A stretch of DNA of 64,000 bases from a bacterium (GTDB taxonomy: Bacteria; UBP14; UBA6098; JAFGQG01). The position numbers and the translations under genes are program-made. Below the pieces are notes generated by a model. The model was not told where the DNA came from, did no database searches, and saw only the letters and a program-made list of their open reading frames with translations. The stretch is taken from positions 1 to 64,000 of the forward strand of contig JAFGQG010000175.1 of the NCBI GenBank assembly GCA_016935765.1. The letters are read 5' to 3'. The first letter of the stretch is position 1. Every line of letters starts with the position of its first letter. Shown piece after piece: positions 11,280 to 46,986 of the stretch.

Positions 11280-11398
11280 TCCTTTATGCCCCCTTAAATT
11301 CAGCCATGTTTTTGATATTAGAATCAAATAAAATAGTGTTTTACGTCTGTATAATATAAATTTGATACAAACTTATTGAGCATAAAAAACGATTTTTT

Positions 11399-13951
11399 CT
11401 ATTTCAAAAGCAGTACTTTATTTATTATAGACCGATTTTGTACAGTGAGTTTAACGAAGTAAATTCCTGATGGCTGCCCTTCCGGCATCTCCCACGAAGT
11501 CCGGTACACCCCCTTGATGACCTTTGCATTAAAAACGGTACCGACTTTTTTACCCAAAAGATCATACACTTCCAGGCTGGCAGATCCGTGCCTATCGATG
11601 GCGAAGTTCAAATTCAGGGTTGCGTTGAAGGGGTTGGGGTAAGTCACGAGCGCTAATTTGTCAGGGGTCTTGATAGTGGCTTCTGGAACATCCACCCATT
11701 CGTAGACCTGAATATCGTCGAGGTACCAGCCGGCAGCGCCTGAATGGTAATCGGTTCCGATCGAGAACCTGATGAGGGCGCTTTCACCAGCGTAAGGTCT
11801 CAGGTCATAGTTCACCATGTGCCAGAAATTTCCGTTATCCATGCCGCCGAAAGCTGGTTCGCCAGCCATGTATATATTGTGGTATGAAACCGGGTTTATA
11901 TATCCTTCAAGGGGGACAAGCAGTTCGAAATTATCTCCACCATCGATGGATATCTTCACGTTACCACCTTCGAAAAGCTCTGAGCTGGTTTCCCCGTTGA
12001 ACCTGTACCAATGCATCATTCTCATTGCGGGGTATTCTGCAATGCCGAGGAAAACTGAGAGGTCGAGTTTCCAGTTGACGTTATCGCCATATTCCCCGTC
12101 GAGGTTCGTACCCCAGCAGTTTGAGCCGGAGTTAGCCCAGCGTGGTCCCTGCAGGTAATCTGGATCCGGGGTGCCCCATTCCCACGCGCTGTCAGGTGGG
12201 TCGGGAATTAAAGCCCCGTCCTCCAGTTCGAAATCGCAGTTGTAAAGTTCGGGGAAAAGATCGTAGTCGCGAATGACAGTATCAAGCTCGGTTACAACTA
12301 CTCCTGAATCCAACGAAGATACGTAGTGCGGTTTGGTTACTGAAATGGAATATGTCCCAATTTCAACAGTATCGATGAAATAGTTGCCTTCTGCATCGGT
12401 TGTATCAAATTTCCCAAGTTCGAGAATTTCCACTACTGCTCCTTCGTCCACATCTTCGTACAGTAAGTCCACATAGCCTTTTATGAAGCCGAAATTCGGG
12501 TGAAGCTCAAAGTCCACGACAGTAGTATCGAATTCAGTGATCGCTACATCCGGTTCTTCGATCGTGACATAATGGTTTTTCGAGACTCTTATAGTGTAAC
12601 TTCCTATCATGACGGAATCGATGGAATAATATCCTGCTTCGCCGGTAAGGGTCGCTTTTCCCAATTCTACTATTTCTACTCTGGCGTTCCTATCGTAATC
12701 ATCGGCAACGATGTCCACGTTACCTTCGAGTGTGCCGAATTTTTCCAACAAGCTGAAATCGTCGATATACCACCCTGGCATGGTGTTTTCCGCGTCAGAA
12801 GCGAAGTCGAATTTAAGCCTTACCTCTTCCAGAAGGAACGGTTCGAGGTTGAGTTTAACACGTTCCCACCCGCCACTGCTTCCGGAGAACGCTGGCTCGC
12901 CGGTGATAGCAGTACCGGCACCCATTTCGTCGACGGGGTACCCATCATCCGGAGTAATTAACTCCCAGGTTATACCATCGTCGGTAGTGATCTTGATGTT
13001 GCCGCCGTCATGGGATTCCTCTGTTTCGTACCAATGCCAGAAGAGAACGTAAGGATGTTGAGCGGAATAAAGGTCCATTCTTGGAGCTAATAAAGAATAA
13101 TTCGCGTAATCAGTGTGGTTCCCTGCTAAGAATGTGCCGAAACAATATGGTGTAGAGTGTGCGCCACCGGGACCGGCGCCGATAGGAGTTCCCCATTCCC
13201 ATTCGCCAATAAGCTCTATATCTTCCATGAAATCGTTGCCCGATAATGTGAAGTCATTGTAATAGAACGGGGCGATAACGATGTTGCTTCTGAAGAGAAT
13301 TGCCAAACTGTCATGTATGTCGGAATCGACTGAAGTGTGGGTTCCGTATTGCAGCCCAATAGTGCCTGTTTCGTTCTCGATCCCTACGTATCCGGTTCGG
13401 TAGCTTGTCAATTGCACAACCAGGTACTGGTATTTTATTGAATTAGCGACGAAATCGAGTATTATCTCATAAGTATATGGTGGGTATGAAGTTCCCCCCG
13501 GATACTCTCTAATCTGGTAGTACTCGATGACCATAAGGTTGTCGATGAACTGGTAGTAAACACTTCCACCCGGGCTATCTGCGGGATCAAAATCCATGTT
13601 TACAATACCCATGACTGCGTTTGGGTAGCTGGAGTTGGGGAAAGGTCCCACAGTGATATAGGTAGTTCCATCCAGAAGGCTGATCCAGCCGTTCGAGTTT
13701 ATGTGCACCTGGCTGTAATCGATACCATAATACTCAAAGGTTCTATCTGTAAAACGTACAGTGGAGTAAGCATCATCAGATAGTGTAACTCTCGTCCCGG
13801 TGGTGGATATTTCTATCCAGTCGAACGCGGGACCTGAGGGCTCCTCAGAGTCAATCCATCTATATCCAAACGCGTCGGGTCCTCCCGTGCTTGCCAGAGC
13901 CCCAAGCGTAAAAACTGACAGGAACAACAAAATTATATACAGATTTTTCAT
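11399..13951 (-). CDS. Secreted multidomain surface protein, paralog 2
   Basis: 850 residues with the same order as its neighbour: signal peptide, GGPDAFGYRW N-terminal domain with SNGWISL, MAM-like sandwich (EWGTP to GWYIDDF), two carboxypeptidase-regulatory-like repeats (each with V-E-I-V/L-E-L-G-K), a second MAM-like sandwich ending GWYLDDIQ, and a YPNPFN sorting module. A good ribosome binding site (AAGGAGAGG) lies 8 bases upstream of the ATG. The regulatory-like repeats are rigid surface spacers in other proteins. Export by Sec and a T9SS-like route is inferred from the signal peptide and C-terminus. Paralogs 1 and 3 lie on either side with short spacers, so the three arose by tandem duplication. 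Confidence 0.72.
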   Translation of the reverse strand: MKNLYIILLFLSVFTLGALASTGGPDAFGYRWIDSEEPSGPAFDWIEISTTGTRVTLSDDAYSTVRFTDRTFEYYGIDYSQVHINSNGWISLLDGTTYITVGPFPNSSYPNAVMGIVNMDFDPADSPGGSVYYQFIDNLMVIEYYQIREYPGGTSYPPYTYEIILDFVANSIKYQYLVVQLTSYRTGYVGIENETGTIGLQYGTHTSVDSDIHDSLAILFRSNIVIAPFYYNDFTLSGNDFMEDIELIGEWEWGTPIGAGPGGAHSTPYCFGTFLAGNHTDYANYSLLAPRMDLYSAQHPYVLFWHWYETEESHDGGNIKITTDDGITWELITPDDGYPVDEMGAGTAITGEPAFSGSSGGWERVKLNLEPFLLEEVRLKFDFASDAENTMPGWYIDDFSLLEKFGTLEGNVDIVADDYDRNARVEIVELGKATLTGEAGYYSIDSVMIGSYTIRVSKNHYVTIEEPDVAITEFDTTVVDFELHPNFGFIKGYVDLLYEDVDEGAVVEILELGKFDTTDAEGNYFIDTVEIGTYSISVTKPHYVSSLDSGVVVTELDTVIRDYDLFPELYNCDFELEDGALIPDPPDSAWEWGTPDPDYLQGPRWANSGSNCWGTNLDGEYGDNVNWKLDLSVFLGIAEYPAMRMMHWYRFNGETSSELFEGGNVKISIDGGDNFELLVPLEGYINPVSYHNIYMAGEPAFGGMDNGNFWHMVNYDLRPYAGESALIRFSIGTDYHSGAAGWYLDDIQVYEWVDVPEATIKTPDKLALVTYPNPFNATLNLNFAIDRHGSASLEVYDLLGKKVGTVFNAKVIKGVYRTSWEMPEGQPSGIYFVKLTVQNRSIINKVLLLK

Positions 13952-14095
13952 TTTATGTCCTCTCCTTGTTATAAAGACAAATCAATCATGGGAAATAAGA
14001 AAATTAATTATGAAGGGAGTCATTGAATGTGCTGCTCCATCTTGTATTGTTTTTTCATAATTACCCGAATACAAAGTTTCTATATTTTTCAGTTT

Positions 14096-16417
14096 TTATT
14101 TGATTAACAATATTTTCTTTGCTGTGCTGCTTTTCCCGTTAAAGTAGAGTTTTACGATATATACTCCGGAGGGCATGGGGTTTGATTGATCGTCCATACC
14201 GTTCCATTGGGTTTGGTGTCTTCCCGTCCCCTGGGGAGCGTCATATAAAGTCTTTATGTTTCTCCCTAGTAAGTCGAACATACATAGCTTAACGGTTCCT
14301 TTTCGGAATGTGGAATAGCGGATATTGACGTTCTGGTTGAATGGGTTGGGGTAACAGGTCATGTCGTAATCCTCAGGAAGCTCGCTTTCATCTTCAGGTA
14401 TGGCAAGTCCTTCCACTATTCTCAGGTCGTCGATATACCACCCCGAGGCAGTACCATAGTAATCGGTGCCGATTTCGAATCTGATTATGACTGATTGGCT
14501 TGCGTATTCAGTCAGGTCGAAAGAGGTCATGTGCCAGAAGTTGCCCTCGTCTTTTCCTCCGAATCCGGGTTGATTCCCAAGAAATGGATTATGGTTGGAT
14601 ATGACTCCCGGGTAGCCTTCAGTTGGGTAAGCCAGGACGAATGAAGGATCTTCGATATTGTTGCTTATCTTCACGTTTGCGCCATCGAAGAACAAATCGC
14701 CCATGTCGTACCATTGCCAGAACTCCAGTCTTGGGTGTTCGCCTCTGTTCAGGGTGATGTAGAGGTCAAGCAGCCAGTTGCATGTATCCTTGTAGGATGA
14801 GTCCAATTTTGTCCCCCAGCATTTTAGTCCGGAATGAGCGTACATAGGCCCCATCGTATCGGCGGTGTCAGGGATTCCGCATTCCCAACCGCCGAAGATC
14901 GGTGTATGAATCACGGGACCACAATTCTCCTCGAAGTCGTTAGTATAAATCTGTGGAGCCAACACGAAATTTTGAGTGGTTGTATCCTGCCGCGAAATGC
15001 TTATATATGCTTCGCCAGGGGCGTATTCGAATGAGGTTGCCCTCAGGTTCCAGTTTCCAACTAAAACTGTGTCGATAAAGAAAAAGCCGTCGTAACCCGT
15101 GGTATCGGCAATCCCTTGCCCCACCACTTCGATGATCGCTCCACTGTCATGGTCCATGTAGGTCAACTCAACGTGCCCGGTTACGTAACCGAAAGCTTCT
15201 ATCAGAGCAAAATCGTCAATGTACCAGCCCGGCGAGCGACCGCTTTCGTTCGATGCAAAGTGATATCTCACCCTGATCTCCTCGTCCCTGAATGATGAAA
15301 GATCAAATTCCTCTTTTTCCCATCCATCGCTTGCGCCTGAATAAGCAGGCATGCCTTCGATAGCGGAACCTTCTTCCATGTCCGAAACGGGGTACCCTCC
15401 GTTGGGGATAACAATGAACCAGTTTATGCCGTCATTAGTAGTGATCTCAAGGTTTCCACCGTCCTGACCCTCATCCATGTCATACCAGTGCCAGAAGTTC
15501 ATGTAGGGATAATTAGTGCCGCTGAGTGCCATTCGAGGGGAGTATAAATAGCTGTCAGTAGAATTGGGATAGGATCCATCTATCGTAGTTCCAAAGCAAT
15601 AGGGTCCCGTACGGGGATAACCGGGACCTGGTCCTGACGGCATACCCCATTCCCAGCAGCCAGTGTCTGCAATATCCTCCATGAAGTCTTCGGCAGTCTC
15701 GTCGAAGCCGTTGTAATAAACCGGATTAATCACTATGTTGGATCTGAACATTATTGCTAATTCATCGTGAAGCACACTTACATCATGACCGTGAGTTCCA
15801 TATTGAAGCCCGATAGTACCGGTCGAATTTTCAATACCGATATAAGCTGTGCGGTATGTTGAATACACAGGTTCAATGTCAAGGTACTGGAAAAATATGG
15901 CGTTCCTGCGAAAATCGAGCACTATCTCGTATGTACATGGAGGATAAGTGGTTCCCCCTGGATATTCGCGTATCTGGTAGTATTCGACAACCAGCTTCCT
16001 ATCGATGTATTCATAAACGACCCTTCCGCCCGGACTGTCTCCCGGGTCGAGGTCCATATTCAATATTCCAAGCACGTTATTGGGGAAATAGGAATTTGGA
16101 AAAGGACCTACCGTGATCGAGGAAGTCGCGTCAGTGAAACTAACCCAACCGTTCGAACAGATATGCAATTGACTGTAACCGACGCCGTAGTAGTCGAAGA
16201 TCTCTGGCATTGTAATGCTTTGATAGGAGTCATCATATAGACTTAAGGCAGTTCCAGTCGATGAGATCTCTATCCATTCGAATATCGGTCCCGATGGTTC
16301 GTCCGAGTCGACCCATCTGTATCCGAATTCATCCGGTCCACCTTCGCTTGAATAAATATTAATAGAAAAAAATATCAAAAAGAAAATTGTAAAAAAAACT
16401 AATTGTTTATATTTCAT
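14096..16417 (-). CDS. Secreted multidomain surface protein, paralog 3
   Basis: 773 residues from the ATG at 16417, chosen because GGAG lies 7 bases upstream; an upstream ATG at 16429 lies inside that ribosome-binding region. It shares the GGPDEFGYRW N-terminal domain, MAM-like sandwiches (ECGIP/EWGMP openings, GWYIDDF/GWYIDDL ends) and sorting module (CYPNPFN, WNGMDD, PSGVYIVKLYF) with paralogs 1 and 2. It has only one carboxypeptidase-regulatory-like repeat (about 405-470) instead of two. Its sorting module is clearly diverged from the near-identical pair in paralogs 1 and 2, so it is the oldest branch or has escaped gene conversion. Role: cell-surface binding protein, function otherwise unknown. 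Confidence 0.7.
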   Translation of the reverse strand: MKYKQLVFFTIFFLIFFSINIYSSEGGPDEFGYRWVDSDEPSGPIFEWIEISSTGTALSLYDDSYQSITMPEIFDYYGVGYSQLHICSNGWVSFTDATSSITVGPFPNSYFPNNVLGILNMDLDPGDSPGGRVVYEYIDRKLVVEYYQIREYPGGTTYPPCTYEIVLDFRRNAIFFQYLDIEPVYSTYRTAYIGIENSTGTIGLQYGTHGHDVSVLHDELAIMFRSNIVINPVYYNGFDETAEDFMEDIADTGCWEWGMPSGPGPGYPRTGPYCFGTTIDGSYPNSTDSYLYSPRMALSGTNYPYMNFWHWYDMDEGQDGGNLEITTNDGINWFIVIPNGGYPVSDMEEGSAIEGMPAYSGASDGWEKEEFDLSSFRDEEIRVRYHFASNESGRSPGWYIDDFALIEAFGYVTGHVELTYMDHDSGAIIEVVGQGIADTTGYDGFFFIDTVLVGNWNLRATSFEYAPGEAYISISRQDTTTQNFVLAPQIYTNDFEENCGPVIHTPIFGGWECGIPDTADTMGPMYAHSGLKCWGTKLDSSYKDTCNWLLDLYITLNRGEHPRLEFWQWYDMGDLFFDGANVKISNNIEDPSFVLAYPTEGYPGVISNHNPFLGNQPGFGGKDEGNFWHMTSFDLTEYASQSVIIRFEIGTDYYGTASGWYIDDLRIVEGLAIPEDESELPEDYDMTCYPNPFNQNVNIRYSTFRKGTVKLCMFDLLGRNIKTLYDAPQGTGRHQTQWNGMDDQSNPMPSGVYIVKLYFNGKSSTAKKILLIK

Positions 16418-16644
16418 AATACACTCCATTTATGATATTTTGAAAATTAATTAAATATTAAAATAAATCTAATAAATAAGCAAGTAAAATTCTATGAAAA
16501 TTTAATTTTGAGATAGGAAAAATTAGAAAAAGTGTTGTAAAAATACTGTTAATGTATGATTCAAACCCAAGAAATGATTGCAAGAAAGTTCGGAATTTGG
16601 GGGCAGTGAATTGTGGGGGGAAATGCCCAATATGGATGATATTT

Positions 16645-18039
16645 CTACTTCAGTAGAACCAGTCTCAGCATTTTATTAATATTCCCTGTTTTGAATTCAG
16701 CAAAATAAATTCCGGCAGGGCACCCGGTGCCATGATCATCATGCCCGTTCCAGGATACTTCGTAATTGCCGGCTTTCTGCCAGCCGTGGTTAAGCACCGC
16801 AACTTTCTCTCCGAGTATATTAGAGATTGCTACATCGACCGCGCTGTTTTCCTTCAATGTGTAGCTGACGGTAACTTTTTTATTAAAAGGATTGGGGTAG
16901 GCTTTGATTTCGGAGTAAACGGGCAGGATTTCTTCTTCTACTTTCAGAGGGCAAGTGCTTAAGCTGTCCATGACGGTTCCATCAAGCCTGATCGCTTTGA
17001 AGTTCAGACAGGTGCCATCTACAGTAATATAGCAGAAATGGTAGGTTCTTTCGGAATAGACGGTCCAATCTGAATATCCGACGCTATAAAGTCCAGCGCC
17101 GCCGCCACCGGTTACAATGTAGTGAACGCCATCAGCCAACCCGTGTTCATAGGCATGGTCGTGCCCGTTGAAAACCATAAAAACTCCATGTTCCTCAATA
17201 ATAGGACATATAGTATATCTTAGTGTAAGTTCGGAACCGTGATTCCCTGAGCTGTAAGGAGGGTGGTGAAACATAACGAATATGAAATCTGCCCAGCTTG
17301 ATCCTTCAATCAACTCATTTTCCAAGAACGTTGGCTGTTCTGAAAATGGAACCAGGTATGGAATACTGGAATCAAGGACGATGAACTTGCAATTTCCATA
17401 TCGGAACGAATACCACTTTTCGTTGTTTGGAAGTTCAAAATACTCGTGGAAAAAAGTAGCCGGTATCTCATGGTTGCCAATCGCGGGATAATAGGGGATA
17501 TTAGCCATTAGCTCTTTATTGATATTAAAAAAGGTTTGAAAATCCGAAGCAAGGAAACCATCCGCAACCAGGTCGCCACTGTTCAAGACGAAGCGTGGTT
17601 CGTACGAAATCATAGCATCAACAATCGATTGATGGGTCGCTGAGTCGGAGCGCGTGTCTCCGAATGCAATAAAACTGAATGGAGTAGAAGTATTAACAGC
17701 AGTGTAAAAATGATAAACATCACTGGAGGCATCGCCCGAGGTTACCTGATAATAATAAAGAACATTTTCAGATAAACTGGTCAACTGGATTGTGTGGTGT
17801 GTTACAGATTCATCGATATTTGAGTGTTCGTCAAATGTCTCAGCACTTCCATAATGCCTTTCGTCAGCATAATCCACATGGGTAGGTGAATTATCGGTGG
17901 TTTCCCAGGTGATACGAATGCTGCTTGTAGTAACGTTTGAAAGGTATGGGCCTTTAATTATTGTATTAGCGTGAATATTAACGATTAGTATCAAAACAAA
18001 TGCGAGTGTTATGGACTTTTTTATCCCCCTGATCGTCAT
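16645..18039 (-). CDS. Secreted purple-acid-phosphatase-like metallophosphoesterase with sorting module
   Basis: 464 residues from the ATG at 18039, which has GAGGAG 9 bases upstream; an earlier ATG at 18108 lacks one. Signal peptide, then a fibronectin-III-like N-terminal domain (IKGPYLSNVTTSSIRITWET) as in purple acid phosphatases. The metallophosphoesterase domain shows all ordered metal motifs: FGDTR (about 127), NSGDL (about 155), GNHE (about 188), HHPPY (about 258) and GHDHAYE (about 292). Purple acid phosphatases use a two-metal centre to hydrolyse phosphate esters. The C-terminus carries YPNPFN and PAGIYFAEF. It probably releases phosphate from extracellular organic compounds at the cell surface (inference from family and export signals). 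Confidence 0.82.
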   Translation of the reverse strand: MTIRGIKKSITLAFVLILIVNIHANTIIKGPYLSNVTTSSIRITWETTDNSPTHVDYADERHYGSAETFDEHSNIDESVTHHTIQLTSLSENVLYYYQVTSGDASSDVYHFYTAVNTSTPFSFIAFGDTRSDSATHQSIVDAMISYEPRFVLNSGDLVADGFLASDFQTFFNINKELMANIPYYPAIGNHEIPATFFHEYFELPNNEKWYSFRYGNCKFIVLDSSIPYLVPFSEQPTFLENELIEGSSWADFIFVMFHHPPYSSGNHGSELTLRYTICPIIEEHGVFMVFNGHDHAYEHGLADGVHYIVTGGGGAGLYSVGYSDWTVYSERTYHFCYITVDGTCLNFKAIRLDGTVMDSLSTCPLKVEEEILPVYSEIKAYPNPFNKKVTVSYTLKENSAVDVAISNILGEKVAVLNHGWQKAGNYEVSWNGHDDHGTGCPAGIYFAEFKTGNINKMLRLVLLK

Positions 18040-18185
18040 CTTTTTGTTTCTCCTCGTTTTTGAACAATAGTACAATAAAATTATAATAAAACAATTTCGT
18101 AAAAACAAGGAAAAATTTGATTAAAATTTTGTTAAGGGATAAAAACAAGGCAAATTCAGCTTACATGTTTCTAGGGATTTGTTAT

Positions 18186-18215
18186 AGGTTGAAGCAGGGA
18201 GTTCAACCTACCCGG
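18186..18215. repeat. Hairpin repeat GGTTGAA...TTCAACCTACCCGG
   Basis: Inverted repeat GGTTGAA / TTCAACC with an 8-base loop followed by TACCCGG. A near-copy occurs at 24082-24112. It lies in the 234-base gap between the phosphatase gene and the dehydrogenase gene, both on the minus strand, and could end or stabilise a transcript, though it has no T-run. Confidence 0.5.
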
Positions 18216-18273
18216 ATATTATGGTTCAGAAATATCCTGGAATAAAGCTCTCAGGGCAGCTGCCAGATAGGGT

Positions 18274-19392
18274 TTATATTTTCCCCGCGACTGCATGAGC
18301 GACTTCGAGAGTAGTGGAGGTTCCTCCCATATCGTACGTTCTGACTTTTTCCTCTTCGATAACTTTTGCTATTGCGTTTTCGAGTTGCCCAGCGTAGTGG
18401 TCTTCATCTAGATATTCGAGCATGAGCCTGATAGAGAGGAGCATAGCGATGGGATTGACCTTGTACATTCCGGCGTATTTGGGTGCGGAACCGTGGGTGG
18501 GTTCGAAGAGCGCGTAGTTGTCGCCGATGTTACCGCTGCACGCGAATCCGAGTCCGCCGACGAGCTGCGCCGCAAGGTCTGAGATGATGTCACCGAACAT
18601 GTTGGATGTGACGAGGACGCTGTAATCGAGAGGATTTTTAAGCAGCCACATTGCCATGGCGTCAACGTTGGTTTCCCAGAGTTCGATGCCCGGGTATTCC
18701 TCCGCGATCTTCCTTGCTTCACGCACCATGAGGCCGGAGGTCTCCCGGATTACGTTCGGTTTCTCCACTACGGTGACTGTTTTCCGCCCATCCTTTTTCG
18801 CGTACTCGAACGCGCTTCTGATTATCTTCTGACAGCCCTCCCGCGTGAATATTCGGCAGGATATCGCGATATCTGCAGGATTTGTATTCTTAAATAATGC
18901 CATGTTCCTACTATTATTCATAAGTGCGTCATACACTTCCTGTGGTACCGGGTGGAATTCGACACCGGAATAGAGACCTTCAGTATTCTCCCTGAAAACC
19001 GCTAGATCGATGCCTTCCCTATAGATAAGCGGATTCCCCTTGTACGCCTTACAGGGGCGGAAATTAGTGTAAAGGTTAAATAACTGGCGAAGTCTCACGA
19101 TGGGGCTGCGGTAAATTAAACCCTTACCCTGAAGCTCGGGGATAAGCTCCTTTTCAGCCTCCTCCTTAGGCTTGGAGGTGATGGCTCCAAAGAGGCAACA
19201 GTCGGTGCTTTTTAAAAGTTCAATGGTTCTGTCGGGGAGAGGGTCTCCCTCGGTTTTCCAGAATTCCCAGCCGATGTCGCCATAGGTAAATTCGGCATCG
19301 AGGTTCAGCTTTTCCAGTACTATCATGGCTGCTTCGGTTACGTCGTTTCCAACCCCGTCGCCGGGGAGAACTGCTATTTTGTGTTTTGACAT
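18274..19392 (-). CDS. NAD-type isocitrate / 3-isopropylmalate dehydrogenase family enzyme
   Basis: 372 residues from the ATG at 19392, preceded by AAAGGAG at the right distance. The frame continues upstream to 19536 only through a tandem repeat and that part is not real. Family motifs in order: LPGDGVGND at the N-terminus, the substrate-loop arginines in SPIVRLRQLF and NFRP, FRENTEGLYSGVE, EKPNV, ETNVDAMAMWLL with the metal-binding aspartates in TSNMFGDIISDLAAQ, and FEPTHGSAPKYAG. These beta-decarboxylating dehydrogenases oxidise isocitrate, 3-isopropylmalate or homoisocitrate. The ENTEGLYSG form favours NAD-dependent isocitrate dehydrogenase, but substrate cannot be settled by eye. No leu, lys or TCA gene lies nearby. 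Confidence 0.85.
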   Translation of the reverse strand: MSKHKIAVLPGDGVGNDVTEAAMIVLEKLNLDAEFTYGDIGWEFWKTEGDPLPDRTIELLKSTDCCLFGAITSKPKEEAEKELIPELQGKGLIYRSPIVRLRQLFNLYTNFRPCKAYKGNPLIYREGIDLAVFRENTEGLYSGVEFHPVPQEVYDALMNNSRNMALFKNTNPADIAISCRIFTREGCQKIIRSAFEYAKKDGRKTVTVVEKPNVIRETSGLMVREARKIAEEYPGIELWETNVDAMAMWLLKNPLDYSVLVTSNMFGDIISDLAAQLVGGLGFACSGNIGDNYALFEPTHGSAPKYAGMYKVNPIAMLLSIRLMLEYLDEDHYAGQLENAIAKVIEEEKVRTYDMGGTSTTLEVAHAVAGKI

Positions 19393-19431
19393 ATTCGCTC
19401 CTTTAAATTTCAATTTTTTAAAAAAAAGTTT

Positions 19432-19530
19432 AACCACAGAGTCACGGAGACACGGAGACACGGAGAAAGAGTAAGCAGTAGGCAGTAAGCAGTAGGCAGT
19501 AGGGAGTAGGCAGTAAGCAGTAAACAGTTG
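19432..19530. repeat. Short tandem repeats: ACACGGAG octamers and GTARGCA heptamers
   Basis: Bases 19432-19470 hold ACCACAGAG followed by repeated ACACGGAG units. Bases 19471-19530 hold about eight units of a 7-base repeat GTAAGCA/GTAGGCA. The array lies just upstream of the dehydrogenase gene. A decayed partial copy (GCAGGCAGTAGGAGGTAAAC) is at about 19612. The ACCACAGAG motif also recurs at about 24165-24207 on the opposite strand. Confidence 0.7.
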
Positions 19531-19888
19531 CAGCATAAAGAAAAATACTTAACGGGGAGGGTGTCGGAGTGCACTAACTGTGCTAGTGCGTATTGGGGCG
19601 GTGAATAGTGGAAAGCAGGCAGTAGGAGGTAAACAGTTGGCAACAGAAAGAAAACGGAAAAGGAAAATATCATTAACCAGATATACGAAAGTGATTAGTG
19701 ACCAGTGATCGGTTATCGGTAGCTGCAGGTTTTCAGTCTACGAGTCATAATATGGTTTATTTAATTATCAAAGAAAAGTAGTTTTAATTTAAATTCCAGA
19801 ATGCAAATTGCAAGATATTTCTTGATTGTTGAATAAAATCCATTAAGTTTGGTATTATTAAAAAGCAACCATGACGGAAGGGGGAATT
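19531..19888. other. Intergenic region upstream of the LRR lipoprotein gene
   Basis: Repeat remnants up to about 19740, then AT-rich sequence. From about 19800 it resembles the region upstream of the second LRR copy (AAATTGCAAGA with TTTCTTG, and the identical ribosome-binding GGGGGAATTATGAGTG at the end), so promoter and leader were duplicated together with the gene. A weak promoter TTGAAT-N18-TATTAT is possible. Confidence 0.4.
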
Positions 19889-20938
19889 ATGAGTGTTAAG
19901 ACATTGAAGTTCGGTGTATGTTTATTGTTTTCTGTATTAATCATATCGATTTTTGTGTTATCCTGTGACAACAAAGGAATTGGACCTAACGGCGGGAATG
20001 GAAGCGGTCCGTTCACTATCACAATCACGAATCCTGAAGAGGGGGATACAATAATTAGCAGTATAATTATTGAGGCAGAAGCTGATTCCCTTCCGCAATA
20101 TATGGAATTTGATTTCGACACTTTCGCTACAATAAAGGACAGCGGTGAAGCTGAAGTTTTCATGGCCTGGTACGATGTATGCTTATATCCTTCAGGGTAT
20201 TATACTTTTTCAGTATCAGCCTATTGGGAGGATACAACCACGACCGCTGAAATTACAGTATTTATCCAGTATGTTGAATGTGACCCAACTCAACCCGTTG
20301 AACTAAACGGAGATACTATTCCGGAGAGTAAAGTAACCCGGAATGCCGCAGGCTGTGTTAGAGCACTCACTTTGCAAAGCATGGGCTGGACAGATCCGAA
20401 TTGCATTAATGGCGTGGAAGAATACAGTGCTACTTTAGTAAGGCTCAGCCTTTCGGGCAATCATCTATCTTCCATAGACCTGAATCCACTTTCTTCGTGC
20501 AGAAATTTATGGATGCTCAGTTTATGTGTCAATCAAATTTCAGGAATAGACCTTACACCACTTTCTAATGTTCAAAATATGGGCTTTTTGGGTCTTTGTT
20601 TTAACCAACTCACCTCGATTGAACTAGCGCCCCTTAGTGAATGCCGAAATTTTCAGGAGTTATATTTGTCCTTTAATAGCCTTAGCCACATAGACCTTAC
20701 TCCGTTGTGGGATTTAAAAGCCTTTAGATACTTTTCTATCGATTTTAATGATCTTGGTTCAACTTCATGTAATCACGTCTGCAATTTTATTGACAGCCAT
20801 CCGGATTGTGATGTTTGGACCGATTGCGATTGTTACGGAAAGAGCATGATACAGGTTAATGAAAGAATGAGCAACAGAGAAAAAAGATTGATGCGGATTA
20901 TGGAACAATTTCATGATTTGTCAGATAGAGTTGATTAA
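19889..20938 (+). CDS. Leucine-rich-repeat lipoprotein
   Basis: 349 residues from the ATG at 19889, which has GGGGG 6 bases upstream; an in-frame ATG at 19871 is poorly placed. Residues 1-26 form a lipoprotein signal with lipobox VLSC, followed by a glycine/asparagine-rich linker and an Ig-like beta domain (about 40-135, with ITITNPEEGDTI). Four leucine-rich repeats of about 24 residues follow (about 195-295; pattern N-x-L-S-x-I-D-L-x-P-L-S-x-C-x-N-L). A cysteine-rich cap (CNHVCNFIDSHPDCD, DCDCY) closes the array. It should be anchored in the outer or inner membrane by lipid and bind a protein or sugar ligand. A shortened, frameshifted copy lies at 21859-22378. Confidence 0.75.
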   Translation: MSVKTLKFGVCLLFSVLIISIFVLSCDNKGIGPNGGNGSGPFTITITNPEEGDTIISSIIIEAEADSLPQYMEFDFDTFATIKDSGEAEVFMAWYDVCLYPSGYYTFSVSAYWEDTTTTAEITVFIQYVECDPTQPVELNGDTIPESKVTRNAAGCVRALTLQSMGWTDPNCINGVEEYSATLVRLSLSGNHLSSIDLNPLSSCRNLWMLSLCVNQISGIDLTPLSNVQNMGFLGLCFNQLTSIELAPLSECRNFQELYLSFNSLSHIDLTPLWDLKAFRYFSIDFNDLGSTSCNHVCNFIDSHPDCDVWTDCDCYGKSMIQVNERMSNREKRLMRIMEQFHDLSDRVD

Positions 20939-20966
20939 TCCCAAAATTAATTATAAAATGAAGTAG

Positions 20967-21046
20967 TTTTTAGTTCCGTTACAAACGGAATACTTATAGC
21001 ATTTTAAATCCAAAATATACCAGAAGCACCCTTTAGGGACGAAATA
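20967..21046 (+). repeat. Dispersed repeat downstream of LRR gene, copy 1
   Basis: About 80 bases with two hairpins: TTCCGTT-ACA-AACGGAA and CCCTTTAGGG, separated by a TTATAG...TTTAAA segment. A related copy lies at 22405-22480 after the broken LRR copy. The hairpins could slow RNA decay or help termination. Confidence 0.6.
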
Positions 21047-21093
21047 TTATTAAAAACTTAGCTAATCTAAAGAAATTCAACATGATTTCTCAT

Positions 21094-21411
21094 TTATTCA
21101 ACTGATACTGTTTCAACCAAAAGTTTTATTCTACGAATTATCTCGCCTATTGAGAGTTTTTGCTGGTGAACAAAAATGATTCCTTGGTATTCTTTACCTT
21201 GTAATCCCCATTCTGTTGCTATTCTTACAAGGTCATCATCATGAGTAAAGAAAACTGCATCATTTGCTGATGCAAATTCTAAAAGGCTCTCATCATCCTC
21301 ATTTGATTTATTCAACTCTTGTACTGTAGTAATTTCAACCCCCCGTCTTCTTAATCCCATCACTATCTTATAATTAACGTTTTCATCAGCGTGGATTTTT
21401 ATCTTTTTCAT
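21094..21411 (-). CDS. DUF5615 family PIN-like toxin
   Basis: 105 residues. The N-terminal HADENVNYKIVMGLRRRGVEITTV, split as ADENV and LRRRGVEITTV, matches the DUF5615 (PIN-like) family, with acidic residues continuing in DDESLLEFA and in FFTHDDDLVRIA. This is the toxin half of a predicted type II toxin-antitoxin pair; the PIN-like fold suggests a metal-dependent RNase. Its ATG overlaps the last 4 bases of the DUF433 gene, the usual antitoxin-first order with translational coupling. The pair lies between the intact and broken LRR lipoprotein copies, on the opposite strand, so it is probably an insertion. Confidence 0.8.
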   Translation of the reverse strand: MKKIKIHADENVNYKIVMGLRRRGVEITTVQELNKSNEDDESLLEFASANDAVFFTHDDDLVRIATEWGLQGKEYQGIIFVHQQKLSIGEIIRRIKLLVETVSVE

Positions 21412-21707
21412 TCTGGAATCACTGATCTGAATTTTTTTTGTGCTTCTCTAATATATTCCTGCCGGTTTTCTATTTCATTATCGATACCTTCTCGGTTTTC
21501 GTAATAGTAAGACAAAACATCATGGATCTGTTGAAGATTAAGTTGTGGATGGGCTTCTATGATTTCATAAGGTGTGTAACCCAGCAGTTCATACTCTATC
21601 ACGATATCAATAACTCTTATTCGAGTATTTTTGATAATTGGTGTGCCTCCACAGACACCCTTTTTTTGCTCTATGTATTTATGAAGTTCTTTTGTTATAT
21701 TATCCAT
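21408..21707 (-). CDS. DUF433 family antitoxin
   Basis: 99 residues from the ATG at 21707, supported by GGAG 7 bases upstream; the frame stays open to 22004 only because it overlaps the LRR copy on the other strand. The centre has the DUF433 signature CGGTPIIKNTRIRVIDI followed by LLGYTPYEIIEAHPQL and the helix ending LSYYYENRE, a MerR-like/HTH fold. DUF433 proteins are paired with DUF5615 PIN-like toxins and are thought to bind both toxin and promoter DNA. The two genes overlap by 4 bases. Autoregulation is likely but no palindrome was identified upstream. Confidence 0.8.
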   Translation of the reverse strand: MDNITKELHKYIEQKKGVCGGTPIIKNTRIRVIDIVIEYELLGYTPYEIIEAHPQLNLQQIHDVLSYYYENREGIDNEIENRQEYIREAQKKFRSVIPE

Positions 21708-21781
21708 ATTTTCTCCAATTATTATTAAGAAATAATACAAATGCAATCTAAGGCATGGAACGATAAATTGCAAGAATTTTC

Positions 21782-21809
21782 TTGCCGGGTACATCAATTT
21801 TGCTATATT
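21782..21809 (+). promoter_or_regulatory. Probable promoter of the second LRR copy
   Basis: TTGCCG (21782-21787), a 16-base spacer, and TATATT (21804-21809), about 50 bases upstream of the ATG at 21859. It fits a housekeeping sigma-70-like promoter. Confidence 0.45.
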
Positions 21810-21858
21810 TAAGTTTATTAAATTGAATTTTAATAGGCGATCTAAAGAAGGGGGAATT

Positions 21859-22378
21859 ATGAGTGTAAAAGTATTGAAGTTTGGTGGATGTTTATTGTGT
21901 TCTGTATTAATGATAACGATTATAGCGTTATCCTGTGATGATTCAATCACGGGATCTTCACTGGAACGAATTAAATTCTGTAAATTTAAGCCCACTTGCT
22001 GCACACTCTAATCTGTTAGTGCTATTCCTTAACGATAACAATTTAACTTCTGTAAACTTAAGTCCGCTTTCAGCTTGCCAAAACCTGGGAGAACTAGACC
22101 TTTCAATCAATGAATTGACTTCAATAAACCTTAATCCTATATGGGAAATTCAGATGCTTAGACGTTTACATCTATATTGCAATGATTTAAACTCAGTCAC
22201 TTGCAGCCATGTCTGCGATTTTATAGATGACCATCCTGATTGTGAGGTTGCTACTGATTGCGAATGCTGTAAGCAGCTTATTACCGGTATGAGTAATGAA
22301 GAGAAGTATAGAGCAGAGGTGCTTAATAGAAATGAAAGGATGGAGCTTATTCCTGGTAGGTCAAGGACGGTCGATTAA
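21859..22378 (+). pseudogene. Frameshifted, internally deleted copy of the LRR lipoprotein
   Basis: The N-terminal 36 residues (MSVKVLKFGG, lipobox ALSC, then DDSITGS) are in one frame from 21859. The leucine-rich repeats (LNSVNLSPLA, NLTSVNLSPLSAC, ELTSINLNPI) and the cysteine cap (CSHVCDFIDDHPDCE, DCECC) are in the +1 frame from about 21960 to 22378. Compared with the copy at 19889, about 130 residues between the lipobox and the first repeat (the Ig-like domain) are missing at the same point. The ribosome binding site and promoter remain. As read, translation would stop at 22011 after 50 residues. A sequencing error could explain the frameshift but not the deletion. Confidence 0.7.
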
Positions 22379-42562: not shown

Positions 42563-43114
42563 CTAATCCCCAATATATTCCTCTTCAAGCTTTTCGTGTT
42601 CCTTGAAAATGGTCTCCATCTGGCTCTTGCACGTCTTCAACTGGGTCACCATCTCTGAAAACCTGTCATTGAACTGCTTGAGGTTCTCTTCGAACTCCTC
42701 ATGCTCCTCCTCGATCTGAACCAGGGGGACCTCGCCATGATGCTCCTCCATCTCCTCATGTTCAGCCTTCCGCTTATCAAATTCCGAAAGCAATTCCCTG
42801 CACTTCTGAATGACCTGGATATGCTCTTCATCCCACTTATCATGCTGTTTCTGTTTGGCTTTATCCTCTTCCGAGAGTCCCTTTCCGGCAAGCTTAATGT
42901 CCAGTTTCATGTGCATTTGGTCCAGTTCTTCGTGCTCAACGATGAGTTCATCAAGAAGGGTTTGAAGGCTTTTCGCGCGCTTGGTCAACTCCTCGGTTTG
43001 AGCCTCAAATTCCGCGTCGAGCTTTTCCCTTAGCTTTTCCCTCTTACGTTTATCACAGCTTGTCAATAACATTAATGGGATAATCCCAAGTATCACATAA
43101 GCTTTTATTCTCAT
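42563..43114 (-). CDS. Coiled-coil lipoprotein
   Basis: 183 residues with a lipoprotein signal (lipobox LLTSC, Cys20) and then an almost continuous charged coiled coil rich in Glu, Lys and Gln (for example LREKLDAEFEAQTEELTKRA). AAGGAAGG lies upstream of the ATG. It faces away from the SPFH operon that begins 180 bases beyond. Long periplasmic coiled-coil lipoproteins can act as spacers or tethers between membranes, but the family is not recognised. The 175 bases downstream (42388-42562) hold only short repeats such as AATGACGAATGA and TTTGCGTTAATCAGCGG. Confidence 0.75.
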   Translation of the reverse strand: MRIKAYVILGIIPLMLLTSCDKRKREKLREKLDAEFEAQTEELTKRAKSLQTLLDELIVEHEELDQMHMKLDIKLAGKGLSEEDKAKQKQHDKWDEEHIQVIQKCRELLSEFDKRKAEHEEMEEHHGEVPLVQIEEEHEEFEENLKQFNDRFSEMVTQLKTCKSQMETIFKEHEKLEEEYIGD

Positions 43115-43294: not shown

Positions 43295-45202
43295 ATGCCG
43301 ATAAAACCTAATAAAGATTCGGAAAACCAGGGTAAAAAACCCATCAAATCCGCTCGAAAAGTGAGAGGGGAGAATCCTGATAATAATGACAGCAGACTTA
43401 AAGCGCTGGTTAAAGCTTCGGTATTTGCTATAATTGCGGATATCTTTTTAATAGCACTCAAATACATCCTGTCGCGGTTCACCGGAAGCGAAGTAATATT
43501 GGCAGATTCCATTCACTCGATGGGGGATTTGGGCATAAGTCTGATGGTTTTGCTCTCCATAGTTATTAACAGCCGTTTTTCCAAAAACGTGATTGCAAAG
43601 CAGGCTGAGAGAATTGCAGCTTTGATAATATCCTTCGCGCTTATTTGGGCAAGCTACAGGGTGATCTTCAAATTCATCTTTCAAAGCAGTGGCGAGAGAA
43701 TTATACAGACCGGGTTCCCCTTAATAGTAGCGTTGGTTGGAATAGTGATAACCATTATAGTGACTTTCCTGATGTCAAATTACAAGCGGAATATCGGGAA
43801 AAAACATGATTCAGTTGCTTTTGAAGCTGAGGGGATACATACTTTCGCGGATTTCCTGACCTCTTTAGGTGCCTGGGTGACTATTTTCCTGCTTTACTTC
43901 GGTCTCAACATCGAAAAGTTCACCTCGTTCATTATCGGGTTGGCTGTCCTGCGCATCGGTATAATGCTTTTCATACGGTCTTTCGGTCTATTCGTTTCAA
44001 TTCTGAAGTTAATCTACCAGGGTATAAGTTTTGTATGGATCAGGATCACTCCCCAAAAATTCAGGGCGTGGTTGAAAAAGCAGTTTGTATTGATTGGCGC
44101 AGAACTCAAGCCTTATTTAGCCCCACTGAAACTTAGCGTTTTTTTCGCAGCGATAGGGAAGTGGATCGCAAAACAATATACTTCCGCTGTGAACTTCCTG
44201 AGCAAGCTGGCGATTTTTAACGAGAACTGGCTGAAGCTGCATTTTCCCAGGCTTATCTGGGTGGTTTTATGTATAATACTCGTATTATACCTTGGCACCG
44301 GGTTATATACTCTTGAGCCTCACCAGAGCGGGATCGAATTGCTGTTAGGGCGCGTAATAGCGGTGAGGCAGCCGGGACTGCATATCCATTTCCCGGAACC
44401 GTTTGGCGGAGTACTGAAGATCAACACGGGAATGGAGCACCGCCTGGAAGTAGGTTTCCGTACAAGCCTGGACACGAATGTGGAAGAACCAGAAGCCTAT
44501 TTATGGGAATCCACACATATAAGTGGCAGGTATCAGAAGATTACTACAGAAGCGATAACTCTCACTGGCGATGAGAACCTGCTGGATGGCAATTTCCTAT
44601 GCTACTACATGATAAAAGACCCTATAAAATTTGCTCTCAATACTGCTCAACCGGAGGAGATAATTCGAAGCTTGTTGTGCCACCATAGTCACAAGTTACT
44701 CGGAATGTATCACCTGGACAGCATATTAACCAGCAGCCGTCTCGATATTCAGGAGCAGCTAACTCAAAAAATGAAGGCAGCGGTGAGCGCTCTACCATTG
44801 GGAGTTGAAATAACGAGGGTTTACATGCGCGAGACACACCCTCCGATTTATGTGGTTCCAAAGTACCGGGCGGTTTCATCAGCTCGGGAGGAGAAGGACG
44901 AGATAATCCACATCGCCAGTGGATATGCCAATGACCACATACCCAGGGCAAAGGGTGAAGCCAGTTCCCTGCTCCTTGAAGCGCGCGCTTACGCCCTTGA
45001 AGAAAGTTTGAAAGCCCATTCAAATACTCTGAGTTTTAAATTACGGCAACAAAATTTTAGTAAATATCAGAACGCTACACAGATCCGGCTGAGGTGGGAA
45101 AAATTGGAGACTCTCCTTGCTGACCGGGAATTGATTATTCTACCCTCAGAAGCCAGGAAACGTGTATTTCCATCAAACCAGGGAAGGTATATTTATGAAT
45201 AA
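43295..45202 (+). CDS. Fusion of a cation-diffusion-facilitator domain with an HflK-type SPFH domain
   Basis: 635 residues. Residues about 35-235 are a CDF transporter: six hydrophobic helices with the metal-site motif H-x-x-x-D in helix 2 (ADSIHSMGD, H74/D78) and again in helix 5 (GIHTFADFL, H182/D186). A linker of about 80 amphipathic residues leads to a seventh membrane helix (about 320-336, VVLCIILVLYLGTGLY) and an SPFH/band-7 domain with the HflK signatures EPHQSGIELLLGR, QPGLHIHFPEPF, TGDENLLDGNF and AREEKDEIIHIASGYAND. CDF proteins export Zn, Fe or Mn; HflK with HflC forms a cage around FtsH. The next gene, HflC, overlaps by 8 bases. I know of no common fusion of this kind; the frame is continuous with no sign of an artefact. 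Confidence 0.85.
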   Translation: MPIKPNKDSENQGKKPIKSARKVRGENPDNNDSRLKALVKASVFAIIADIFLIALKYILSRFTGSEVILADSIHSMGDLGISLMVLLSIVINSRFSKNVIAKQAERIAALIISFALIWASYRVIFKFIFQSSGERIIQTGFPLIVALVGIVITIIVTFLMSNYKRNIGKKHDSVAFEAEGIHTFADFLTSLGAWVTIFLLYFGLNIEKFTSFIIGLAVLRIGIMLFIRSFGLFVSILKLIYQGISFVWIRITPQKFRAWLKKQFVLIGAELKPYLAPLKLSVFFAAIGKWIAKQYTSAVNFLSKLAIFNENWLKLHFPRLIWVVLCIILVLYLGTGLYTLEPHQSGIELLLGRVIAVRQPGLHIHFPEPFGGVLKINTGMEHRLEVGFRTSLDTNVEEPEAYLWESTHISGRYQKITTEAITLTGDENLLDGNFLCYYMIKDPIKFALNTAQPEEIIRSLLCHHSHKLLGMYHLDSILTSSRLDIQEQLTQKMKAAVSALPLGVEITRVYMRETHPPIYVVPKYRAVSSAREEKDEIIHIASGYANDHIPRAKGEASSLLLEARAYALEESLKAHSNTLSFKLRQQNFSKYQNATQIRLRWEKLETLLADRELIILPSEARKRVFPSNQGRYIYE

Positions 45203-46085
45203 ACCTAAAATCAGAAGGATAATAATTTTATTCTGCGTCATCGCTGCTCTCAGCCTGTTCTATTTATTTTTCACAACGGTTGTTTACGAGGGTGAGATGG
45301 CAGTTGTGACCCGCTTTGGCAAACCTGTGCGCGTACTTGACAAGCCCGGATTCTACCTGCGCTTGCCGTTTCCGTTGAACCATATCGGGCGTATCGACAG
45401 CCGCTTGACCATGCTCGAGCCCAGACCTTCAGAGTATCTGACCGCCGATAAAAAGAACCTTATTCTTGAGAGTTCTATATGCTATAGAATTTCCGAACCA
45501 ATTGTCTTCCTGAAGACGGTAATCGACCAGGAGGGATTGAATATAAGGCTGACCGACCTGCTGTCATCTCATACCGGCTTGCTGCTATCCATACATGAAT
45601 TAAGCGAGATAATAAATGTCGAGGCTGCCAAACTCAAGTTCCAGGAGTTGAACGATAAGCTTACCGAATTGATCAGGAAGGACGCCAGTTCGTTCGGGAT
45701 ATCCGTCGAGCAGGTTTTTGTGAAGAGAGTGATGTTGCCGGACGACAACAAACGCGCGGTTTATAAAAGAATGAGCGCTGAGAGGGAACGGATTGCCAAG
45801 AAGTACCTGGCGGAAGGAGAGGAAAAAGCGCTCGAAATACGGGCTGAGGCAGATAAAGAGTACCGGCGAATACTCGCTGAAGCGCAAAGTGAAGCTACGA
45901 TAAAGCGCGGTAAAGCTGATGCCGAAGCGATGGAGATCTACGGCGAAGCATACAGCAAGAACACCCAATTCTATAACTATATACGTACACTTGAAGCTTA
46001 CGAGGATATTTTCGGAGAAAAGACCACAATAATCCTGGATGAGAACTCGAAGTTGCTGAAGATATTTTTCTCCGGCGGGAATTAA
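45195..46085 (+). CDS. hflC: HflC-like SPFH domain protein
   Basis: 296 residues from the ATG at 45195, with GGGAAGG 8 bases upstream; the frame is open 33 bases earlier but inside the preceding gene. One N-terminal membrane helix (IIILFCVIAALSLFYLFF) is followed by the band-7 domain: VYEGEMAVVTRFGKPVRV, KPGFYLRLPFPLNHI, TADKKNLILESSICYRI. A long coiled-coil tail follows with ERERIAKKYLAEGEEKALEI and AEADKEYRRILAEA, the AEGEE/RAEAD pattern of HflC. HflC pairs with HflK as a periplasmic cage modulating the FtsH membrane protease. It overlaps the CDF-HflK fusion by 8 bases and is 1 base from the next SPFH gene, so all three must be co-translated. Confidence 0.88.
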   Translation: MNKPKIRRIIILFCVIAALSLFYLFFTTVVYEGEMAVVTRFGKPVRVLDKPGFYLRLPFPLNHIGRIDSRLTMLEPRPSEYLTADKKNLILESSICYRISEPIVFLKTVIDQEGLNIRLTDLLSSHTGLLLSIHELSEIINVEAAKLKFQELNDKLTELIRKDASSFGISVEQVFVKRVMLPDDNKRAVYKRMSAERERIAKKYLAEGEEKALEIRAEADKEYRRILAEAQSEATIKRGKADAEAMEIYGEAYSKNTQFYNYIRTLEAYEDIFGEKTTIILDENSKLLKIFFSGGN

Positions 46086-46086
46086 T

Positions 46087-46986
46087 ATGAAACGAAAAGG
46101 GAAAATATTTACCTGGCTTATAGTCATTACCGTATTACTGGCTGGATATTTCGGGACCGGTTTTTACAGCCTGAAAAGCGGACAGCACGCGCTGGTGCTC
46201 CGGTTTGGAAAATATGTTAGAACCGACAAGACACCCGGAGTGCATTTACGGCTGCCTATTCCTTTCGAAAAACAGATCGAATATAACGTTAACAAGGTAC
46301 AAACAGTCGCTATTCCAGTTGATGAAAAGGAAGACATCGAAAGAATGACCGGGGACGCGAACCTCATAATGGTTTCAGCGGTTATAACATATGAAGTGAA
46401 AGACCTGAAATATTTTCTGTTCAATGCTCGGGATCAAGCGAGTATGATCCACGCAATAACTCAGCAGAGTCTGACCAGGCAGCTCGTGGAGATGAACGTT
46501 GACGACGTAATGACCACGGGCAAATCCAACATGAGGGTGCTATTGAAGGCGAATATACAGGAAAAATTGGATTCGTTAAGGTCCGGAGTGTGGATTAAAT
46601 CGGTGGAGTTAACTGATATCGCTCCGCCTCCGGAAGTGGAGACCGCGTTCAACAAGGTTTCTGATGCCCGGGTGGAGAAGCAGGAGATCATCAAGAGCGC
46701 TGAGGGTTATGCTAACGCCGTGGTACCCAACGCGAGGGGTCAGGGTTCTGCGCTAATCTCGGGTGCTGAGGGGTATGCAGAGGAACGTTTGAACGAGGCG
46801 CGGGGTAAGGTAAAAGCATTTCAGGATATCTACACTGAATATCTCAAAAACCCTTCAATAACCTTGAAGCAAAGATATCTGAATACCCTTGAAGTGATTA
46901 TGAACAAATGCGATATCACGGTTGATTCTGACCCTGGAAACAGTATCTATTATCTGGGCAAGGAACCAAAAGGCGAAAGCAAATAA
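46087..46986 (+). CDS. hflK: HflK-like SPFH domain protein (second HflK type)
   Basis: 299 residues starting 1 base after the HflC stop. One membrane helix (IFTWLIVITVLLAGYFGTG), then the band-7 domain: LKSGQHALVLRFGKYVRTD, TPGVHLRLPIPFEKQ, MTGDANLIMVSAVITYEV. The HflK-type tail follows: VSDARVEKQEIIKSAEGYAN with VVPNARGQGSALI. It resembles the C-terminal half of the CDF fusion protein more than HflC, so the operon encodes two HflK-type subunits and one HflC. Most bacteria have one of each. The final 20 residues are hydrophilic. A promoter for the next transcription unit begins 18 bases after its stop. Confidence 0.85.
   Translation: MKRKGKIFTWLIVITVLLAGYFGTGFYSLKSGQHALVLRFGKYVRTDKTPGVHLRLPIPFEKQIEYNVNKVQTVAIPVDEKEDIERMTGDANLIMVSAVITYEVKDLKYFLFNARDQASMIHAITQQSLTRQLVEMNVDDVMTTGKSNMRVLLKANIQEKLDSLRSGVWIKSVELTDIAPPPEVETAFNKVSDARVEKQEIIKSAEGYANAVVPNARGQGSALISGAEGYAEERLNEARGKVKAFQDIYTEYLKNPSITLKQRYLNTLEVIMNKCDITVDSDPGNSIYYLGKEPKGESK

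Follow-up and report, generated by a model that had tools for sequence, protein, structure and literature searches.

The CDF–HflK Fusion Gene

The fusion gene lies at positions 43295–45202 of the forward strand of the window, the whole 64,000-nt stretch of DNA that was analysed and to which all window coordinates refer. It is a single frame of 635 codons without interruption. The open frame and the Pfam, NCBIfam and structure matches identify its 635-aa product as a cation diffusion facilitator (CDF) membrane domain to which an HflK-type SPFH domain is attached by way of a linker and one extra transmembrane (TM) helix. The CDF part (aa 44–234, 43424–43996, +) has six predicted TM helices, as indicated by the PF01545 match, the helices of the model and hydropathy. 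No Pfam match to the cytoplasmic C-terminal dimerisation domain of CDF proteins was found in the fusion, and the linker and HflK stand in its place. The seventh TM helix (aa 320–338, 44252–44308, +), marked by a hydropathy peak of 2.44, is the counterpart of the N-terminal anchor of HflK; in this region the fusion aligns with E. coli HflK starting at residue 79. The Band_7/SPFH domain (aa 341–541, 44315–44917, +) comes next and is followed by a long C-terminal helix.

A CDF domain, a linker, a seventh helix and an HflK band-7 domain in one frame had been proposed in the sequence-only reading of this DNA, and the Pfam search agreed with it. The Cation_efflux domain PF01545 (aa 44–234) was matched at 5.8e-18, with 65.8 bits against a gathering cut-off of 26.6, and Band_7 PF01145 (aa 341–541) at 1.3e-9, with 38.8 bits against 23.6, so that the first half is indeed similar to PF01545. 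The two domains above cut-off, together with the conserved metal ligands, rule out a chance open frame. The NCBIfam scores were lower: TIGR01933 (hflK, aa 337–619) gave 9.6e-37 and 126.8 bits, under the equivalog cut-off of 159.4, and TIGR01297 (CDF) gave 8.7e-18 and 64.6 bits, under the cut-off of 82.35. Such scores are as expected of a divergent member. The TIGR01297 cut-off was passed by the relatives G050, L075 and Aquibium, and that of TIGR01933 by some relatives, including P0003 (177.1) and Aquibium (215.3).

In a sequence search against solved structures, the fusion matched E. coli HflK at 1e-20 and FieF at 6.5e-5. With a five-sequence profile the values reached 3e-55 and 2e-18, respectively, and ZnT1, ZnT4 and ZnT8 were also matched. 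The AlphaFold2 model, which is of moderate confidence (pLDDT 65.5, pTM 0.38), contains six helices, the linker, a long helix including the further TM helix and an SPFH fold. Its best matches among solved structures were HflK 7vhq for one half (7.8e-14) and YiiP 8f6k for the other (3.5e-5, rmsd ~3).

The Metal Site of the CDF Domain

The tetrahedral site A is complete in the fusion, with two ligands on TM2 (H74-x-x-x-D78, 43514–43528, +) and two on TM5 (H182-x-x-x-D186, 43838–43852, +). H74, D78, H182 and D186 align with the site-A residues D45, D49, H153 and D157 of YiiP/FieF. The HD-HD pattern of site A is typical of zinc CDFs.

The sequence-only reading had noted intact metal residues on both helices. 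All four are present, and each is found in at least 20 of the 21 fused CDFs compared: H74 in 20/21, D78 in 21/21, H182 in 21/21 and D186 in 20/21. The exceptions are L201, which has no H74, and L151, which has Asn at the position of D186. The fused relatives share merely 24–29% whole-protein identity with the window protein, yet the site-A ligands are kept. By domain and ligands, the first half of the fusion is a CDF protein minus the CDF C-terminal domain.

The Three-Gene Unit

The fusion gene opens a tight unit on one strand, in the order CDF–HflK, hflC and a second hflK (K2). Neither of the two downstream genes had been mentioned in the sequence-only reading. An hflC-like gene was found at 45195–46085 (+), scoring 170.5 bits against the TIGR01932 cut-off of 134.4. 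It overlaps the end of the fusion by 8 bases, its ATG at 45195 lying within the last codons of the fusion, and AGGGAAGG stands just upstream of it. The second hflK-like gene, K2 (46087–46986, +), begins 1 base past hflC and scored 195.8 bits with TIGR01933 (cut-off 159.4).

Just upstream of the unit, a divergently oriented gene (42563–43114, −) encodes a small lipoprotein-like coiled-coil protein with no Pfam family above cut-off.

The Same Unit in Other Genomes

A contig search with the window protein alone gave no carriers of the unit; a three-sequence alignment used as the query did. The order CDF–HflK, HflC, HflK was found in 20 other genomes. They are G050, G065, G039, G068, G293, G358, G231, G098, G365, G238, G267, G286, G308, GMC4 (G158), Zixiibacteriota L071, CSSED10-310 L072 (G240), the PVC group L074, Teredinibacter L075, Hydrogenedentota L089, whose third gene runs off the contig, and Aquibium oceanicum. 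The two carriers from culture are Teredinibacter (sp. ISS155) and Aquibium oceanicum (B7). In the latter, the unit lies within the region 12642–22066 (L221) of the complete conjugative plasmid NZ_CP018172.1, and the encoded fusion, WP_072608301.1, scores above both the CDF and the HflK NCBIfam cut-offs. Its name at NCBI is just HflK; on the present sequence predictions, proteins annotated merely as HflK can be metal exporters. Upstream of the unit, the plasmid encodes a two-component system and has an IS3-type transposase-like frame; a peptidylprolyl isomerase gene is found downstream.

An assembly join between two separate genes, named in the sequence-only reading as what would undo it, was ruled out, as were a bin chimera and a local accident: ~20 independent genomes share the fusion and the order of the genes, two of them from cultured organisms and one with the unit on a complete plasmid. 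The recurrence of the fusion with its metal residues conserved is also what the sequence-only reading had set as its own supporting evidence. Several carriers, for example G039, G068, G121 and G383, also have an ordinary hflKC pair. The neighbouring genes differ between cassettes, and no metal regulator common to them was seen. In 399 genomes from the phylum to which G304 belongs, the Aquibium protein as query gave only HflK-domain matches at E <= 1e-55. The long HflK frames L015/L038 (G040) and L040 (G043) were rejected as frame run-on without a fused exporter.

Other Exporters in the First Position

The joining of an exporter to HflK holds more widely than had been claimed for the CDF version, as unrelated metal exporters were found joined to the same HflK relative. 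An SO_0444-type Cu/Zn permease occupies the same position of the unit in 14 genomes (G066, G063, G061, G383, G121, G108, G089, G228, G384, G118, G254, G276, G141 and G258, in the last of which the unit is spread over two contigs), and the permease domains of these fusions exceed the curated cut-off of 300 bits (NF033936). SO_0444 of S. oneidensis is required under Zn or Cu stress (PMC3219624). Meanwhile, G286 has a P1B heavy-metal ATPase–HflK gene in a full unit and a separate CDF unit elsewhere in the genome, and the Elusimicrobia contig L073 has a P1B–HflK gene with no hflC within 1.6 kb downstream. The P1B domains of the fusions are over their curated cut-off (TIGR01525). In a 386-genome census with inspected frames, the exporter–HflK unit was counted in at least about 27 genomes from at least about 18 family groups. 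By its predicted domains, one type of cage gene has thus been combined, in many groups of bacteria, with metal exporters of three unrelated kinds. This recurrent joining suggests that metal export can be organised in a way not yet described.

The SO_0444 versions retain the CSC motif (13/13 examined) and the P1B versions retain CPC and DKTGT. The conservation of these motifs, and of the CDF ligands despite low overall identity, argues for all three versions being functional as exporters. It could instead be proposed that the exporter domain serves as a metal sensor or structural anchor rather than a transporter. The regulatory C-terminal domain of CDF proteins is absent from the fusion, as such a role would allow. 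In addition, L215 (G278:C130) and L216 (G172:C52), in which an HflK with an unrecognised multi-TM N-terminus is followed by hflC and hflK, suggest that the cassette persists despite a degenerate membrane part. This part is possibly a degenerate CDF, a reading held at that level because the profile support is weak (hhalign probability 56%, 91 columns). However, the transport ligands are conserved in the CDF, SO_0444 and P1B versions, unrelated active exporter types interchange, and in both L215 and L216 the unit has gained a fourth gene, which encodes a P1B ATPase of its own. A sensor or anchor seems very improbable to us.

Some further arrangements were noted. At L217:4924–6999 (G141:C137), an EamA/DMT-type domain (PF00892) precedes the HflK domain and is followed by hflC and hflK; the arrangement may thus extend to a fourth type of transporter. 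Two SO_0444–HflK units have a ZIP zinc transporter gene as their immediate neighbour on the same strand (L211:1004–1858 and L206:7236–8084), and in two genomes a gene of the FmdA/AmdA family (acetamidase/formamidase) lies between an upstream hflC and the SO_0444–HflK unit (L154:461–1492 and L199:6136–7266).

HflK Lineages and the Relation to FtsH

A quick IQ-TREE tree with SH-aLRT supports was built after removing two long-branch rows. The 40 fused-type, 37 third-gene and 30 ordinary HflKs each formed one side of a branch, with supports of 87, 89 and 98 (starred), respectively, the first two being under the starred level. K2 of the window grouped with the K2 genes of other cassettes; both it and the fused HflK of the window have long branches. 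In a fuller tree, the SO_0444 versions came together, and the CDF and P1B versions were scattered among the fused forms. The simplest reading of these sequences would be a single system with exporter replacement; the supports are moderate and several independent fusions are the alternative.

Most fused HflKs are also marked by an insertion before the LTGDEN motif that contains a conserved Trp (W404 in the window, 44465–44554, +). The Trp is present in 31 of the 40 fused HflKs, in one of the 37 third-gene proteins and in none of the 30 ordinary ones. The insertion is missing in nine rows that are of SO_0444 type or truncated by contig ends and, by eye, also in Aquibium. Because it scores under the TIGR01933 cut-off and falls outside ordinary HflK in the tree, the second half of the window fusion is, as judged from score and tree, a distinct HflK paralogue and not HflK itself. 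Together with a first half that is a CDF without its C-terminal domain, this would place the unit among the HflK/C-type SPFH systems, with an exporter as cargo.

FtsH is a zinc protease, and the window's genome, which is ~90% complete, has one clear ftsH gene, located on another contig. The other three Band_7 proteins of this genome look stomatin-like, so it has no HflK/C set apart from the cassette. In E. coli, FtsH is enclosed and modulated by HflK/C (PMC12048511). These facts suit the proposal, made in part in the sequence-only reading, that the cassette cage still holds FtsH, the fusion coupling metal export to membrane-protein proteolysis or the metal load controlling FtsH. Against it, ftsH is absent from every cassette inspected, and several carriers keep an ordinary hflKC pair as well. 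Moreover, the SPFH2 arginine (R193 of E. coli HflK, PDB chain 7vhp), which has a putative role in FtsH contact, is present in 28/30 ordinary HflKs, 19/40 fused HflKs and 0/37 third-gene HflKs. We consider the coupling to FtsH unlikely, and this part of the sequence-only reading found no support so far.

The Proposed Cage

We think it probable that the unit encodes a specialised HflK/C-type cage, one HflK-like subunit of which carries a metal exporter as built-in membrane cargo. The sequence basis of this reading is the single-chain CDF and HflK, the conserved site, the co-directional unit, its recurrence, the swapping of exporters and the separate HflK lineages. Homology and gene order suggest that the three proteins assemble jointly into one cage.

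Both termini of CDF and P1B exporters are cytoplasmic, and the chain of HflK starts in the cytoplasm, crosses the membrane by a single TM helix and continues into an SPFH domain in the periplasm. Since the exporter part would end in the cytoplasm, the extra helix would cross the membrane and bring the SPFH domain to its periplasmic side, over the exit of the exporter, with both natural orientations kept. The CDF part would act as a proton antiporter that exports Zn2+ or a comparable ion. The SPFH ring may assume the subunit-joining role of the absent CDF C-terminal domain and gather many exporters beneath one dome. More speculatively, the exported metal might be released inside the dome and not into the open periplasm. 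The extended proposal, that an SPFH dome houses interchangeable exporters (CDF, SO_0444 and P1B) which deliver metal into an enclosed periplasmic chamber, the whole being encoded by mobile three-gene cassettes, is tentative, and we hold it to be rather doubtful.

The E. coli HflK/C cage is periplasmic, consists of 24 alternating subunits, encloses FtsH and also assembles without FtsH (PMC12048511). An open, nautilus-like form exists as well (PMC12048511), and SPFH proteins are commonly tied to membrane microdomains (reviews). The SPFH part might thus just concentrate the exporter in a microdomain, with no closed cage over the exit. Two orphan fused genes agree with such plain tethering: that of L073 and L152, a second SO_0444–HflK gene of G383 that has no hflC or hflK partner beside it. 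These two show that a fused gene need not have the cage partners next to it. Nearly all fused genes, however, are accompanied by an hflC and a second hflK of their own, which is what a hetero-oligomeric ring would require, and we regard tethering alone as improbable compared with the cage that carries its exporter.

Comparison with Known Systems

The best sequence and fold match of the fusion is the E. coli HflK/HflC–FtsH system (PDB 7vhp, 7wi3, 9cz2), with which it shares the HflK-type SPFH domain, the TM anchor, the long C-terminal helix and the adjoining hflC. Unlike in that system, the HflK of the fusion bears an N-terminal metal exporter and usually the Trp-bearing insertion, and in place of one HflK with HflC the unit has two distinct HflK paralogues with HflC and no ftsH. 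The six-helix membrane domain and site-A ligands are those of YiiP/FieF and the ZnT exporters (PDB 2qfi, 8f6k; ZnT3 8xn1), in which the cytoplasmic C-terminal domain is retained, whereas the corresponding end of the fusion runs into an HflK-like SPFH subunit. Likewise, the fused SO_0444-family permeases (NF033936) and P1B ATPases (TIGR01525) are full exporter domains; unlike the free exporters, they form the N-terminal part of a chain with the HflK paralogue that is also found in the CDF version. The stomatin–aquaporin 1 complex (PDB 9zd2/9zd5) also combines an SPFH protein with a membrane transport protein, but, going by the titles of these entries, the two are separate human proteins, with no fusion and no metal exporter.

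No description of an exporter–HflK fusion was found in the open-access literature searched, and Hinderhofer et al. (2009), whose subject is the SPFH proteins of prokaryotes, use neither the word "cation" nor the word "transporter". The fusion bears on what SPFH cages do beyond modulating FtsH. As selection has joined a cage subunit to three unrelated exporter families, the cargo of the cage is written into the gene, and a role of SPFH domes in organising transport across membranes becomes directly testable in cultured bacteria.

Nearest Relatives and Other Genes of the Window

The nearest relatives of the window's genome (G001–G016, of the same family or class) gave no match to the fused-HflK profile at E <= 1e-50, which suggests a horizontal gain of the cassette in this lineage or losses in the relatives. 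Elsewhere in the window, three related large proteins of 865, 850 and 777 aa are encoded in tandem at 8730–16429 (−). They have a beta-rich tail and a KKVLLLK-like end, and several other large proteins of the window end likewise.
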